Shown piece after piece: positions 10,519 to 50,162 of a stretch of 64,000 bases of DNA. The stretch spans positions 124,001 through 188,000 of the forward strand of contig JAFIEZ010000006.1 in NCBI GenBank assembly GCA_020832235.1, written 5' to 3'. Origin of the DNA: Bacteroidota bacterium. Its GTDB lineage: Bacteria > Bacteroidota > Rhodothermia > Balneolales > HLUCCA01. Below the pieces are notes generated by a model. It was not told the origin of the DNA. It did no database searches and worked only from the letters and a program-made list of their open reading frames with translations. Every line of letters starts with the position of its first letter. The first letter of the stretch is position 1. The position numbers were made by a program, and so were the translations under genes.

Positions 10519-10654
10519 AATAGAGATATAGAAAAACACATACATAGAACCGACATACGTAATACGCTGCCTCGTATTATTGGAATACTCATTAGAACTC
10601 GTATTTAAAATTGAACTTTTGATTGCGGATACCCATTCCAAGCCGCAAAAACCG

Positions 10655-10662
10655 TATATTTA
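10655..10662 (+). promoter_or_regulatory. -7-like element TATATTTA six bases before the lipA start codon
   Basis: TATATTTA at 10655-10662 is followed by six bases and the lipA ATG at 10669. If used, the mRNA would start at or within a few bases of the start codon. No good -33 TTG is seen at the usual distance. Confidence 0.45.
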
Positions 10663-10668
10663 ACCATT

Positions 10669-11550
10669 ATGATTAAAGAACTCGACGTAATACCATCTGA
10701 GGTTAAAGACACCTCCCGCCGTCCTGAGTGGCTGCGCGTGAAACTGCCAACTGGCCGTACATTTCGCGAAGTTGCAGACATTATACGTGATCACAAGTTA
10801 AACACGGTCTGTGGTGAAGCGCGTTGTCCGAACATGGGCGAGTGCTGGGGTAACGGTACGGCAACGTTCATGATATTGGGTGATGTTTGTACGCGTTCGT
10901 GCGGTTTTTGTGCTATAAAAACCGGTCGTCCTGTTCAGGGGCTCGACTGGGATGAGCCTAACCGTGTTGCAAACGCAGCAAAACTCATGAACCTAAAGCA
11001 TGTAGTAATTACATCAGTAAATAGAGACGAACGAAAAGATGGCGGCGCTCCTATTTTCGCAGAAACACTCAAACGTCTTCGTGAAGAAATAGAAGGTGTA
11101 ACAATTGAGGTTCTCATTCCCGATTTCCGAGGCGTCTGGGAAGCATTACAGATTGTTATTGATGCCAAGCCGGAAGTACTCAATCATAATCTGGAAACCG
11201 TACCCAGCTTATATCGAATTGTGCGTCCACAGGCTAAGTATCACAGATCCCTTGAACTACTTCGTCGTTGTAAAGACCAGGGCCTTCGCACCAAAACCGG
11301 TATCATGGTAGGTCTTGGTGAAACCAAAGAAGAGGTATATCAGCTGATGGACGATGTTGTTAAAGCGGGTGTAGATGTGCTTACTATCGGGCAATATATG
11401 CAACCCACCAAGATGCACCTCCCCGTAAAGGAATGGGTTCACCCGGATGTATTCGCAGAATACAAGCGAATTGGCGAAGCTAAAGGAATTGATCATGTAG
11501 AAAGCGGACCGCTTGTTCGTTCATCTTACCATGCAGAGCGCCATCTCTGA
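10669..11550 (+). CDS. lipA: Lipoyl synthase
   Basis: The 293-residue radical-SAM enzyme inserts two sulfur atoms into octanoyl groups. The auxiliary cluster cysteines are C48, C53 and C59 ([15 protein letters not shown]); the radical-SAM CxxxCxxC is C74, C78 and C81 ([12 protein letters not shown]); and the C-terminal RSSYHA serine that ligates the auxiliary cluster is present. Length matches the family. The gene ends before a clear intrinsic terminator (11584-11621). It works with lipB just upstream and with the E2 and E3 genes elsewhere in the window. Confidence 0.97.
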
Positions 11551-17206: not shown

Positions 17207-18112
17207 TCAATTCATTTTAATACGCATTTCTTCCACTATATTTTTAATCTCGGGAGAAGATATTATGTATTTTTTTGAGCAGTAATGACAAACCAGTTCC
17301 TGGTCTTCGTCTTTCATATTGTCTAGCTCATCTATACTAAGTAAGGCCATGGCGTCTACAAATCGGTCTTTTGTACATCGGCAGAAAAAGTGTACAGGAA
17401 CACGATTTAACTCTTTGCTGTCGAATGGCATGAGGACAGTTTTCATGAGGTCGTCAATATACTCATCTTGCGAAAAGTGGTGGGATAATGGAATTAGTTG
17501 CTGCAGATTTGCCTCAAGTGTATCAATCTGTTTTTCAGGAGCACCGGGTAATGCCTGGATAAGAATACCGCCAGCGTGCGTTACTTCACCAGTATCATCA
17601 ATACCAACGTCGAGTGTAATTGCTGAAGGAATTTGTTCCGACTGAAACAGATAAAAGGCAACATCCTCCGTAATATTTCCATTGCGCAATTCAACTGTAC
17701 CGGTGATCGCCTGAGCTTCGTTGTACAACATTTTAGAAAAGGTAAGTAATCCAATTCCGAGACCATCGCCAATTTGAGGATTATCCTTAGTAAAGTCTAG
17801 TTCAGCAAGCGGGTTGTGAACGTAACCCCTTGCCTCTCCAACCGCGTTTGCTTCCGCAATAATAGTTCCAACAGGACCATTTCCTTGTAGTTGTAGTCGT
17901 ATTCGCTCTTCTCCTTTCAGTTCGGATGCGAGCAGAAGCGCTGCAGTGAGTGTTCGCCCGAGTAAAACCGTTGCAAGCGGAGATAAATTATGATTTGCTT
18001 TTGCGGCCTTAACTACATCGGTCGTTTTAACAACCGACACGCGGAAGTGTCCGTCTGTGGTGATGCCTTTTACGAGGCGATCTTTAAATAAATAGCGTTT
18101 TTTTGCGTCCAT
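17207..18112 (-). CDS. hslO: Redox-regulated chaperone Hsp33
   Basis: The 301-residue protein has the Hsp33 N-terminal fold (RLVKGITTDGHFRVSVVKTTD, GNGPVGTIIAEA, GYVHNP) and the C-terminal zinc redox switch: CxC at Cys244/Cys246 and CxxC at Cys275/Cys278. On oxidation the cysteines release zinc and the protein becomes a holding chaperone. A perfect TAnnTTTG element (TATATTTG, minus strand 18124-18117) is followed by only four bases and then the ATG, so the message is probably leaderless. Confidence 0.95.
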   Translation of the reverse strand: MDAKKRYLFKDRLVKGITTDGHFRVSVVKTTDVVKAAKANHNLSPLATVLLGRTLTAALLLASELKGEERIRLQLQGNGPVGTIIAEANAVGEARGYVHNPLAELDFTKDNPQIGDGLGIGLLTFSKMLYNEAQAITGTVELRNGNITEDVAFYLFQSEQIPSAITLDVGIDDTGEVTHAGGILIQALPGAPEKQIDTLEANLQQLIPLSHHFSQDEYIDDLMKTVLMPFDSKELNRVPVHFFCRCTKDRFVDAMALLSIDELDNMKDEDQELVCHYCSKKYIISSPEIKNIVEEMRIKMN

Positions 18113-18116
18113 GCCT

Positions 18117-18124
18117 CAAATATA
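18117..18124 (-). promoter_or_regulatory. Perfect -7 element TATATTTG four bases before the hslO ATG
   Basis: The octamer matches the Bacteroidota TAnnTTTG consensus exactly and is followed by AGGC and the start codon. The same four-base spacing is seen at panC and at the alpha/beta hydrolase gene. A -33 TTG is not evident. Confidence 0.6.
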
Positions 18125-18190
18125 CGAAGGTTTTATAGGAGATACGCTTTGCTAACATGCTTGTGTGAATGGTAATTCCCAGCTTATACA

Positions 18191-18228
18191 AATAAAAAAA
18201 GGCGAGCTGTTTCACCAGGTCGCCTTTT
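18191..18228 (-). terminator. Intrinsic terminator (minus strand) in the hslO upstream region
   Basis: Arms 18197-18205 and 18220-18228 form a 9-bp stem; on the minus strand it is followed by seven T. It can end both read-through from the methyltransferase operon and the candidate small RNA. Confidence 0.85.
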
Positions 18229-20167: not shown

Positions 20168-21025
20168 TTAAAATATAATGTTGTCTATCAGTCGGGTGTT
20201 CCCAATCTTTGCGGCCACCGCTATGATGTACGTTCTATCTGAATAAACACGTTGTTGTGGCTGTAGGTTTCGTACATCTACAATGGAAAGATAATCAATT
20301 TTAAAACCAATTTCTGTAAGGCGGTATCTGGCCGCTGCCAGGGTGCGATCCAGGTCTTCTGCGGTGATATCTCCGCCATGCTTGAGATAATCTCGGATGG
20401 AGGTGATTTCTGCATACAATTGCGGTGCTATCGCCCGCTCTTGTGCGCTCAGGTATCGATTTCTGGAGCTCATGGCCAGTCCATCCGCTTCCCGGATGGT
20501 TTTCCCGCGGTGTATGCGCACCGGAATATTGAACTCGCGAACCATGGTCTCCAGCAGGATGAGCTGCTGGATGTCTTTCTGGCCAAACCAGGCATCGGTT
20601 GGTTGAACGATGTTGAAGAGTTTGTTTACGATCTGCAGAACTCCGTTGAAATGCCCGGGACGGGTGGCTCCGCACAGGTGGTCGGTCAGTTCTGCGATGC
20701 GAATGGATAGAAACTGGGCTTCCGGGGGATATAGTTCTGTTGTTTCGGGGGTGAAAACGAAGTCAACGCCGGCTTCCTTGCAGGCTTCCAGATCTTGTTT
20801 CAGCGTACGGGGGTAGCGGTCGAGGTCTTCGTTAGGACCAAATTGGGTTGGGTTAACGAAAATCGTGGTAACAACCACATCGCAAACCTGCCGGGCTTCC
20901 GCTATTAACGAGAGGTGACCTTCGTGCAGGGCCCCCATGGTGGGGACAAGACCGATGCGTTTACCGGCCTGGCGGGCGGGCTTCAAAGCCTCGCGAAGAG
21001 ATGTGATCGAGTTAATGGTCATCAT
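20168..21025 (-). CDS. panC: Pantothenate synthetase
   Basis: The 285-residue enzyme joins pantoate and beta-alanine using ATP. Motifs: PTMGALHEGHLSLI (28-41), TTIFVNPTQFGPNEDLDRYPR, FGQKDIQQL and the KMSKS-like MSSRNRYLS. Two successive ATG codons occur at the start; the first, at 21025, follows a perfect TAnnTTTG element (TAATTTTG) by four bases, predicting a leaderless message. The intrinsic terminator at 21051-21091 separates it from the upstream E2 gene. Confidence 0.96.
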   Translation of the reverse strand: MMTINSITSLREALKPARQAGKRIGLVPTMGALHEGHLSLIAEARQVCDVVVTTIFVNPTQFGPNEDLDRYPRTLKQDLEACKEAGVDFVFTPETTELYPPEAQFLSIRIAELTDHLCGATRPGHFNGVLQIVNKLFNIVQPTDAWFGQKDIQQLILLETMVREFNIPVRIHRGKTIREADGLAMSSRNRYLSAQERAIAPQLYAEITSIRDYLKHGGDITAEDLDRTLAAARYRLTEIGFKIDYLSIVDVRNLQPQQRVYSDRTYIIAVAAKIGNTRLIDNIIF

Positions 21026-21029
21026 GACC

Positions 21030-21037
21030 CAAAATTA
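21030..21037 (-). promoter_or_regulatory. Perfect -7 element TAATTTTG four bases before the panC ATG
   Basis: Same element and spacing as at hslO. A T-run belonging to the upstream terminator lies at the -33 distance and may serve as the upstream box. Confidence 0.6.
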
Positions 21038-21050
21038 CAGGGATATATGC

Positions 21051-21091
21051 AAAAAAACGGCATGAAGCGCTGTGCAACATGCCGTTTTTTT
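21051..21091 (-). terminator. Strong bidirectional-looking terminator between the E2 gene and panC
   Basis: Perfect 14-bp arms, A7-CGGCATG (21051-21064) and CATGCCG-T7 (21078-21091), with a 13-base loop. On the minus strand it follows the E2 gene by about 85 bases. Confidence 0.92.
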
Positions 21092-21176
21092 ATGAGATGT
21101 TGTTGGCGTGTGAGACTTATGATATAAAACGAGACGTTTTTTTACCGCAAAAGCCTTTGGGATACGCCACACAGAT

Positions 21177-35710: not shown

Positions 35711-36290
35711 GGTCGCTCCAGGAGAAGCTCTGTCCAGCGCCAACATCCGACCAGCGCACGATGCTCCACAAACCGTCTTCGCCCGACTCCAGAACCAGTA
35801 CAAATCGTCCTGTTATACTCGTTGGCACCCCTACATTGGCCCGATTGTGAATGAGCGTGAGGGAATAATCGGCCACAATCTGCTGCTCACTCACGGAAAT
35901 CGATTCACTGCTGATGTTACTCAGCCGTAATTGGTGGCCTGTGGTATTTTCCGCAGCTGCACGGAGGTTGTTAAAATACAACTGTTCTTCATCCCTGCTC
36001 CAGCGTGCCCACAACTCGGGATTAGACTCCAAAGCCGGCAGGGAAGGATTGTACTCAAACAAATCGGGATGGAGGTTTCGCAGGTAGTTCTGGGTATTAA
36101 GGTTCTCGATGGCATTTACGAGATTATCGAGTACCACATCGGCACGATCGGGCTGCATAAACACGCCGGTTACGGCTCCGTCGGGAGGCTCCGCCGAACG
36201 GGTTTCAAACAAAGAACATCCTCCAGCTATCAAAAGCAATACCAAAGCATACGGCATTAGCGTGGTGCTATATTTTAAAAAGCAGGTCAC
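35685..36290 (-). CDS. Lipoprotein of unknown function, possible NTF2-like fold
   Basis: The 201-residue product starts with GTG and has a lipoprotein signal ending LLLIAGGC (Cys25). The mature part begins with a helical segment (VVLDNLVNAIENLNTQNYLRNLHPD) followed by beta strands, the arrangement seen in NTF2-like/SnoaL folds (YFNNLRAAAEN, RFVLVLESGEDGLWSIVRWSD). It overlaps the alpha/beta hydrolase stop by 4 bases, suggesting a shared message, and the convergent RluA gene by 26 bases. No catalytic residues can be named. Confidence 0.78.
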   Translation of the reverse strand: MTCFLKYSTTLMPYALVLLLIAGGCSLFETRSAEPPDGAVTGVFMQPDRADVVLDNLVNAIENLNTQNYLRNLHPDLFEYNPSLPALESNPELWARWSRDEEQLYFNNLRAAAENTTGHQLRLSNISSESISVSEQQIVADYSLTLIHNRANVGVPTSITGRFVLVLESGEDGLWSIVRWSDVGAGQSFSWSDLRASFLVD

Positions 36291-37075
36291 TTAAAGAATG
36301 TTTCAGTAATGATTTTGAACTGATGGCTGCGATCCAGAAAGGCGTAGTGACCAGCACCGTCAATAACGGCTAATCCGGCGTTTTTTATACCCTTTTCCAT
36401 CCGTCGAGCCTGATAAAGCGGGGTCGCATCGTCATCTTTTCCCCAAAGCAAAAGGACTTCCTGATCAATTTTAGGTAGTGTAGATTCCAGATATTCCGAT
36501 ACCGTTTTTACAAAAACCTCCCTCATCACGCCGTTTAGCGTCTTATAGTCGGATGAGCCCAATAGTTTCCACAGTTTTGTACTACGAAGCCAGCTTAATC
36601 CACGCTCCGAGAGCGGCTGTGGAAGCAAGGTAAAGGGAAATTTCAGGGATTTAGCGGTGTATTTTCGGATGTAATACATAACTGGTCGGTTCGGTTTCAT
36701 ACCGGCCCCTCCGGTTATGAGGACTTTATCGATCAGGCTGGTGCTACCTTCGCGGGCGCAGAGCTTCAATGTTACCCTGCCACCGAAGGAATGTGCAAGA
36801 ATGTCGACCGGGCGCTCGAGCTGCTGTATGTAAGTCTGAACCATGTCTGCATAATCATCAATTGCCCAGGCTTTTGGCGGAGGCGGGGATTGACCGAACC
36901 CCGGAAAATCAAGCAGATGGAAAGTTCTTTTAAGTTTAAGCGACGTGGTAATGGGCTTCATAACATCACTGTTTGCACCCCATCCATGTAACACGATTAA
37001 TGGCTTCCCTTTGCCAAAGCTGCACGATTTCACAGACAAGCCGTTAAAATCGAATGTCGATTCATTTATTTCCAT
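36287..37075 (-). CDS. Alpha/beta hydrolase
   Basis: The 262-residue protein has the alpha/beta hydrolase features: LHGWGANSDV near the oxyanion hole, nucleophile elbow LAHSFGGRV (Ser), acid WGKDDDATP (Asp) and GAGHYAFLDR (His). Substrate is unknown; relatives include BioH-like esterases, but no biotin genes are near. A perfect TAACTTTG element lies four bases before the ATG, predicting leaderless translation. The lipoprotein gene follows with a 4-base overlap. Confidence 0.88.
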   Translation of the reverse strand: MEINESTFDFNGLSVKSCSFGKGKPLIVLHGWGANSDVMKPITTSLKLKRTFHLLDFPGFGQSPPPPKAWAIDDYADMVQTYIQQLERPVDILAHSFGGRVTLKLCAREGSTSLIDKVLITGGAGMKPNRPVMYYIRKYTAKSLKFPFTLLPQPLSERGLSWLRSTKLWKLLGSSDYKTLNGVMREVFVKTVSEYLESTLPKIDQEVLLLWGKDDDATPLYQARRMEKGIKNAGLAVIDGAGHYAFLDRSHQFKIITETFFK

Positions 37076-37079
37076 ATTT

Positions 37080-37087
37080 CAAAGTTA
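37080..37087 (-). promoter_or_regulatory. Perfect -7 element TAACTTTG four bases before the hydrolase ATG
   Basis: Same TAnnTTTG-N4-ATG layout as at hslO and panC. It overlaps the 18-bp block that recurs inverted at 26201-26218. Confidence 0.6.
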
Positions 37088-37145
37088 CACAAAACTCACA
37101 GTAAAAGTAGTGTAAGGAATCGGGCCTTTATGACTCATTATAGTA
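37085..37145 (+). repeat. Segment related to 26201-26259
   Basis: Partner of the segment before radC: 18-bp block inverted, neighbouring block direct. See the finding for this pair. Confidence 0.6.
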
Positions 37146-49504: not shown

Positions 49505-49531
49505 AAAAATACCCCGATTTGGGGTATTTTT
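49505..49531. terminator. Perfect 11-bp hairpin between the aminotransferase and GbsR-type genes
   Basis: AAAAATACCCC (49505-49515) and GGGGTATTTTT (49521-49531) with a five-base loop. It suits a terminator of the aminotransferase, but ends only 10 bases before the next ATG and overlaps a -7 element, so it may also be an operator. Confidence 0.7.
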
Positions 49532-49541: not shown

Positions 49542-50162
49542 ATGGAGCATAAGCAAAAAGCATATCAAGAGGCACTCGAGCAGTTTCTGCTTTTGTGGGG
49601 AGAAATGGCCCCGGCCTGGGGTATCAATAGAACTATGGCTCAGATTCATGCCCTTCTGTATGCGGAAGAAGATATGCTTGATACCGACGCCATTATGGCT
49701 AAACTCGAGATCAGCAGAGGTAATGCAAACATGAACCTGCGCAAACTCACCGAGTGGGGTCTGGTTAGCAAACATCAGCATGATGGGAGTCGGAAAGAGT
49801 ATTTCACTGCAGAAAAAGACGTATGGATTATCGCATCCATCATCATTCAGGAGCGTCAGTACAGAGAGCTTGCTCCGGTTAAACAAAACTTGATTGAGTG
49901 TCTTCAGCTGCTTGAAGATCAGGAAAGCAAAGGAGATGCCGATACGGCCGTATTTCGCGAACGAATTGAAGATTTTATTAAAGTATTGGATTTATTTGAA
50001 GAGTTTTCTGCCGCACTGCTCCCTTATGTTGAATCAAAGAAACTAGGTTCGTTAAGAACGCTTTTGAAGCTTGCGAAAGCTCCTAAGATGCTCATCGATT
50101 CTATAACCGGTGGTACAAAAGAAGAAGCATCATCCAACCGCTTTACAACACCTAAAGAATAA
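49542..50162 (+). CDS. GbsR/MarR-family transcriptional regulator
   Basis: Start placed at the ATG at 49542 (206 residues). The N-terminal winged helix is clear: WGINRTMAQIHALLYAEEDMLDTDAIMAKLEISRGNANMNLRKLTEWGLV, a GbsR-type signature, with DGSRKEYFTAEKD as the wing. The rest is helical and may dimerise. In studied relatives the regulators respond to choline or similar solutes and repress nearby genes; the ligand here is unknown. The perfect palindrome at its own promoter suggests self-control. yraN follows after 7 bases. Confidence 0.88.
   Translation: MEHKQKAYQEALEQFLLLWGEMAPAWGINRTMAQIHALLYAEEDMLDTDAIMAKLEISRGNANMNLRKLTEWGLVSKHQHDGSRKEYFTAEKDVWIIASIIIQERQYRELAPVKQNLIECLQLLEDQESKGDADTAVFRERIEDFIKVLDLFEEFSAALLPYVESKKLGSLRTLLKLAKAPKMLIDSITGGTKEEASSNRFTTPKE

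Follow-up and report, generated by a model that had tools for sequence, protein, structure and literature searches.

Promoter-type boxes lie almost directly against the start codons of several genes in the 64,000-nucleotide stretch analysed here (the window; C2:124001-188000 of a 3.376-Mb source genome in 20 contigs). We consider it probable that these are sigma-A-type -7 boxes abutting the ATG, and that they yield leaderless mRNAs for hslO and an alpha/beta hydrolase gene and a near-leaderless mRNA for lipA; for panC a leaderless mRNA in this genome is uncertain. The sequence-only reading had described three genes in which exactly four bases separate TAnnTTTG from the ATG, and the coordinates bear this out to the base. 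On the minus strand, the hslO octamer TATATTTG (18124-18117) is followed by AGGC and the ATG (18112-18110); the panC octamer TAATTTTG (21037-21030) by GGTC, the ATG (21025-21023) and a second ATG directly after; and the alpha/beta hydrolase octamer TAACTTTG (37087-37080) by AAAT and the ATG (37075-37073). All three start codons are ATG, and the base directly before TA is G in 3/3. The distances given for lipA (TATATTTA, 6 bases) and a GbsR-type gene (TATTTTTG, 9 bases) were also correct, and the gene at 10669 has the Pfam Radical_SAM and LIAS_N domains expected for lipA. The features concerned are:

18117..18125, minus strand: putative hslO promoter box GTATATTTG (octamer plus preceding G), ATG 4 nt downstream.
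17207..18112, minus strand: hslO (Hsp33), predicted leaderless; Pfam HSP33 1.2e-77; N-terminus aligned in relatives.
21030..21038, minus strand: panC box GTAATTTTG, first ATG 4 nt downstream.
20168..21025, minus strand: panC (pantoate-beta-alanine ligase), ATG at 21025 or 21022; Pfam 1.1e-103.
37080..37088, minus strand: alpha/beta hydrolase box GTAACTTTG, ATG 4 nt downstream.
36287..37075, minus strand: alpha/beta hydrolase, predicted leaderless; Pfam Abhydrolase_1 5.6e-21.
10654..10662, plus strand: lipA box GTATATTTA, 6 nt to the ATG at 10669; predicted leader of 1-2 nt.

In published work the -7 promoter element of the phylum is TAnnTTTG (excerpts of PMC7366714, PMC9723704 and PMC6847099), and the octamers would be -7 elements used by the housekeeping sigma factor of Bacteroidota. 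The same excerpts place the box at -12 to -5 in Flavobacterium psychrophilum (PMC9723704) and leave 4 or 5 nt between box and start site in F. johnsoniae (PMC6847099). Because the published distance is 4-5 nt, a spacer of four would make the A of the ATG the +1 base, by extension from other species. RNA polymerase would accordingly begin 4-5 nt downstream of the box, on the A of the ATG in hslO, the hydrolase gene and, in this genome, panC, and 1-2 nt before the ATG in lipA; ribosomes would then initiate on an AUG recognised at the 5' end of the message, and not through a Shine-Dalgarno sequence or an A-rich leader. What we infer from this layout is that the boxes act as promoters, exactly where transcription starts and how the messages are translated.

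Gene starts were sampled from 60 stretches plus the window (1,222,989 bases together). A home-made caller yielded 872 genes, from which we dropped those with no possible ATG start, cut by a stretch end, lacking an upstream neighbour or with <150 nt upstream, leaving 797 ATG starts, 55 inside the window and 742 outside. TAnnTTTG at spacer 4 preceded 4/797 genes, three of the four being the window genes. Inside the window, 3/55 genes had this layout, where 300 shuffles averaged 0.04 and never exceeded 2, a count made on the same set in which the pattern was first noticed; outside it, only 1/742 did (shuffle mean 0.35), which is no excess. Over spacers 3-6, the octamer occurred at 7/797 genes (shuffle mean 1.47, maximum 8 of 300), and at 4/742 outside the window (mean 1.40, maximum 5). 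Raw whole-genome counts, which include matches inside genes, gave no clear excess of TAnnTTTG-N4-ATG over the reversed pattern (40 versus 37); the corresponding counts were 67 versus 51 at spacer 3, 50 versus 35 at spacer 5 and 27 versus 45 at spacer 7, and the N4 to N7 comparison was 40 versus 27 (p 0.07). The raw counts of GTANNTTT also showed no excess over reversed (56 versus 58 at spacer 4, 42 versus 58 at spacer 7). We judged such counts too blunt a test for this genome, because intragenic matches swamp the few real sites, and keep them as results against the leaderless reading. In the noncoding upstream DNA of 552 genes, TA..TTTG was found 57 times versus 41 expected. In its perfect TAnnTTTG form the element does not serve as a signature across this genome.

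The same noncoding DNA (552 genes) was over-represented in poly-T runs, GTATATT, GTATTT, GTATCT and GTATATTT, and a motif fit run with the last 16 nt upstream of the ATG excluded recovered the same core, ccGTATwTTT, which looks like the lineage form of the -7 element. We describe this putative element as (c)GTAtwTTt(g), in which G before TA would be favoured and the final G often missing. GTAnnTT, carried by hslO, panC and the hydrolase gene alike, stood at spacer 4 in 10/797 genes versus 1.08 expected from column composition, and at spacers 3, 5 and 6 in 2, 4 and 2 (1.03, 0.96 and 0.77 expected). Outside the window, 7/742 genes had it at spacer 4 versus 0.96 expected (p 7e-5; shuffle mean 1.0, maximum 5 of 300), and the excess over spacers 3-6 had p 1.8e-5. 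The ratio was 5.2 for GTAnnTT and at most 2.4 for the other words made of its letters (20 in all), and GTAnnTT ranked first of all XXX..XX words at the spacer-4 position (8.6 sd). In-frame stops do not explain this excess, because the same-frame spacers 1, 7 and 10 were nearly empty (1, 0 and 1 of 797). A second, broad excess of GTAnnTT at 26-50 nt from the ATG is what leadered promoters would be expected to give. With a softer weight matrix the motif came out diffuse, and at the thresholds of that matrix spacers 3-6 held no more sites than their neighbours; as this matrix has no near peak, the spacer-4 result rests on the simple word GTAnnTT and the case is somewhat weakened. In a genome of the same genus (G001), GTAnnTT stood at spacer 4 in 2/247 genes versus 0.26 expected, and a motif fit there reached no sharp motif. 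The genome-wide enrichment over shuffled upstream regions that the sequence-only reading looked to was thus missing for the literal TAnnTTTG (1/742 versus 0.35) and present for GTAnnTT (7/742 versus 1.0): a promoter box placed for a start on the start codon occurs above chance as the latter (7/742 versus 0.96) and not as the former.

Box and spacing are kept in the sister genome. Orthologue pairs between the source genome (G000) and G001 required at least 60% identity and a match beginning by residue 6; the resulting 140 pairs fell to 128 once those lacking an ATG at the aligned G001 start were dropped. GTAnnTT stood at spacers 3-6 in both members of 4 pairs, in the source genome only in 1, in G001 only in 0 and in neither in 123 (Fisher p 4.7e-7). 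The common boxes, with their source and G001 spacers, were those of hslO (4/3), lipA (6/6), the alpha/beta hydrolase gene (4/4) and a permease gene (4/3):

L002:4267-5499: LolC/E-like permease (MacB_PCD, FtsX), box 4 nt from the ATG in the source genome and 3 nt in G001; a further good candidate for a leaderless mRNA.

The one near box of five lost in G001 was that of panC. Among distant source-genome boxes in the same pairs (at least 12 nt from the ATG), 1/14 was common to G001 within 1 nt. When the hslO, lipA and permease loci of the two genomes are aligned, the box stays while adjoining bases differ; upstream of the hydrolase gene a longer stretch is alike.

The wider footprints covered 30 loci each, out of 56 (hslO), 55 (panC) and 58 (alpha/beta hydrolase) genomes with a match. 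The hslO box lies at spacer 3-4 in 4/4 family genomes, that is, the source genome and the other three (G001, G002 and G003), taking the form GTACCTTCG in G003; outside the family it occurs at spacer 3 in 2/26 loci, both from one genus. The hydrolase box is GTAACTTGC at the same spacing in G001 and TATCTTCG at spacer 3 in G003, and is absent from G002. The panC box is absent from all three relatives. Taken with the box-to-start distance and the spacer-4 excess, this pattern upholds the leaderless reading for genes whose box is kept in G001: hslO and the alpha/beta hydrolase gene are probably leaderless and lipA probably near-leaderless. For panC, whose box has counterparts in 0/3 relatives, that reading is uncertain. 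As a separate observation, hslO (TACCTTCG) and the hydrolase gene (TATCTTCG) of G003 (loci L069 and L169) both have TAnnTTCG 3-4 nt before the ATG, which may reflect a -7 consensus that has shifted in that genus.

The surroundings of the three genes bear on where their transcripts could begin. The genes upstream of hslO and panC are co-directional with them, and that upstream of the hydrolase gene is divergent; two hairpins lie in the intervening DNA:

18197..18228, minus strand: hairpin resembling an intrinsic terminator, with a U-tract, in the DNA that separates hslO from its upstream neighbour, ~85 nt ahead of the start codon; -16.5 kcal/mol, z -3.8.
21050..21092, minus strand: strong terminator-like hairpin before panC, its U-tract ending 25 nt before the ATG; -22.9 kcal/mol, z -6.4.

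Given these hairpins and the divergent neighbour, each of the three genes would need its own promoter, barring read-through. In our own scan of panC relatives, a terminator-like hairpin preceded panC in 14/30 loci (L112-L141), and in six of these the hairpin or U-tract ended 6-12 nt before the ATG, with no box visible by eye. The relatives' hairpins are so near the ATG that read-through seems likely there, and we therefore dropped the panC hairpin as proof that the mRNA starts after it; panC of the source genome may also receive read-through from its upstream gene. The hairpin could itself terminate transcription incompletely or control panC by attenuation.

Two alternatives bear on the boxes as promoters. 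One, which we regard as unlikely, is that they are bystanders and the genes are transcribed with a normal leader from promoters farther upstream or by read-through. The co-directional neighbours of hslO and panC allow for this, and the six relatives with hairpins 6-12 nt before panC suggest that panC may use read-through; against it, U-tract hairpins separate hslO and panC from their upstream genes in the source genome, the hydrolase gene is divergent from its neighbour, and the distance from a bystander box to the ATG would not be kept. The other, quite unlikely in our estimation, is chance, with octamers falling at random before ATGs and the window's three being a selected coincidence. It draws on the single literal octamer at spacer 4 among 742 genes outside the window, the raw count of 40 versus 37 reversed, and a panC box without counterpart in the other three family genomes, but it is at odds with the GTAnnTT excess outside the window and with box and spacing being kept in 4/5 orthologue pairs versus 0/123. 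The earlier judgement that the shared spacing is unlikely to be chance is thus right for the class, although three perfect cases in one window are partly luck.

Two further alternatives concern translation. That the box is instead a 'non-canonical AT-rich RBS' of the FCB group, acting in a leadered mRNA rather than as a promoter, strikes us as very unlikely. AT-rich non-SD signals upstream of FCB-group genes have been described from gene-finder work (excerpts of PMC9581028), which is in its favour, but TAnnTTTG is the published -7 element and the second GTAnnTT excess, at 26-50 nt, lies too far from the ATG for ribosome binding. Misplaced start codons, by which the true starts would lie downstream and the box would give a short leader, are very improbable indeed: panC has its two successive ATGs, but the hslO, lipA and hydrolase proteins align with those of G001 from residue 1, and the hslO starts agree within one codon in the relatives shown. 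We therefore retain the reading of -7 boxes abutting the ATG.

AGGAG ending 3-10 nt before the ATG was found 22 times in the 797 genes, versus 3 and 2 in control intervals, and in G155, a genome of the same phylum, 2 times versus 0 and 4; the source lineage seems to keep Shine-Dalgarno use for a minority of its genes. A GAGG lies one base from the hslO ATG; neither G001 nor G002 retains it. That no ribosome binding site could fit before these genes, as the sequence-only reading had put it, is not diagnostic alone, since only a minority of genes here have an SD-like sequence in any case.

The GbsR-type gene, offered earlier as close to this layout, is probably not an example of it. Its TATTTTTG overlaps a palindrome and is better read as part of it:

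49505..49531, plus strand: perfect palindrome AAAAATACCCC-GATTT-GGGGTATTTTT, 27 nt, before the GbsR-type gene at 49542.

The only Pfam match of the gene was a sub-threshold MarR_2. Because G001 carries the palindrome unchanged between differing flanks, the palindrome is probably an operator or terminator and not a leaderless box; we note it as a candidate autoregulatory operator or bidirectional terminator.

Across the phylum, where pooling 148 genomes makes the same raw patterns informative, TAnnTTTG-N4-ATG occurred 7672 times versus 5584 for the N7 pattern in the same frame, and the reversed patterns 6195 (N4) versus 5847 (N7). N4 counts were above N7 in 110 genomes, below in 31 and tied in 7. 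The excess was uneven among families: 128 versus 40, 50 versus 15 and 129 versus 55 in three represented by single genomes (f27, f31 and f29), 329 versus 130 in f24 (8 genomes), 243 versus 117 in f20 (2) and 497 versus 279 in f17 (6), with f19 (282 versus 255, 30 genomes) and f18 (908 versus 835, 13 genomes) nearly even. In 16 genomes, the ratio to the reversed pattern was 1.66 at N3, 2.28 at N4, 1.57 at N5 and 1.15 at N7; these genomes were picked partly for a high N4 count, so that only the other spacers are unbiased. Gene-aware analysis of G155, which belongs to these 16 (158 genes; L172-L191), found 2, 7, 0 and 2 perfect octamers at spacers 3-6, with 0.1-0.3 expected at each, along with a leadered group of boxes at 11-30 nt. 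G095 and G179 point the same way in small samples (56 and 46 genes with at least 40 nt of noncoding upstream DNA). Overall, N4 outnumbers the N7 control by a factor of two to seven in several genomes (G155, G095 and G179; f17, f24, f27, f29 and f31), which suggests that lineages with a high N4/N7 have many leaderless genes.

Near boxes made up 0.36 of all excess boxes in both the source genome (5-95%: 0.20-0.70) and G155 (0.23-0.50); other cuts put the share at 0.35-0.52, their intervals extending past 1. These values suggest a leaderless share of about a third among box-bearing promoters in the two genomes, with wide error. A broader proposal, that leaderless transcription is major and conserved in several Bacteroidota lineages, with selection holding the -7 box at N4, with such promoters making up roughly a third of those that bear a box, and with this box accounting for part of the 'AT-rich non-SD' ribosome binding signal described by gene finders, is tentative, and we lean against it. 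The box-at-ATG arrangement is known but uncommon, and looks commoner in some families of the phylum than in others.

Shine-Dalgarno sequences are mostly missing from Bacteroidota, and work on how start codons are located by their ribosomes is still in progress. Conserved genes with a promoter fixed at the ATG could be set against leadered ones in conditions, or with drugs, that discriminate between the two, and the family spread over 148 genomes indicates lineages suited to such a comparison. TAnnTTTG at four bases is also a signal that could be used to correct start-codon annotation. Leaderless mRNAs in Bacteroidota are already a known kind; the parts possibly worth specialist attention are the uneven family spread and the phylum-wide four-base spacing.

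Among known systems, the sigma-ABfr -7 promoters of the phylum are close to these boxes. The six conserved bases are present in all three genes, which also agree with the revised consensus TAHHTTTG, in which positions 3-4 are not G, and the box-to-start distance fits; the -33 TTTG element is weak in F. johnsoniae (both from excerpts of PMC6847099). The source genome differs in its top word, GTAtwTTt, in which a G precedes TA and the last G is weak. Published leaderless mRNAs of the phylum have the same layout as that predicted here from sequence. As excerpted, those reports put leaderless mRNAs at 5.5% in F. psychrophilum (PMC9723704), leaders of 10 nt or less at 13% in F. johnsoniae (PMC6847099) and leaders under 10 nt at 3.7% in Bacteroides thetaiotaomicron (PMC7366714), a minority of 4-13% compared with our estimate of about a third of box-bearing promoters in two genomes. 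Our literature search found no paper combining 'Balneol' and 'leaderless'. A further precedent is Zheng et al. 2011, who, in the excerpts available (PMC3160421), defined TA-led leaderless genes by a Pribnow box ~10 bp before the start, compared signals with the Escherichia coli Pribnow box while allowing that other signals may be missed, and listed Bacteroidetes with many 'atypical' genes. The logic is the same in both studies, a promoter box too near the start codon for a leader; here the box is TAnnTTTG-like, a form that their filter, as excerpted, may not recognise.
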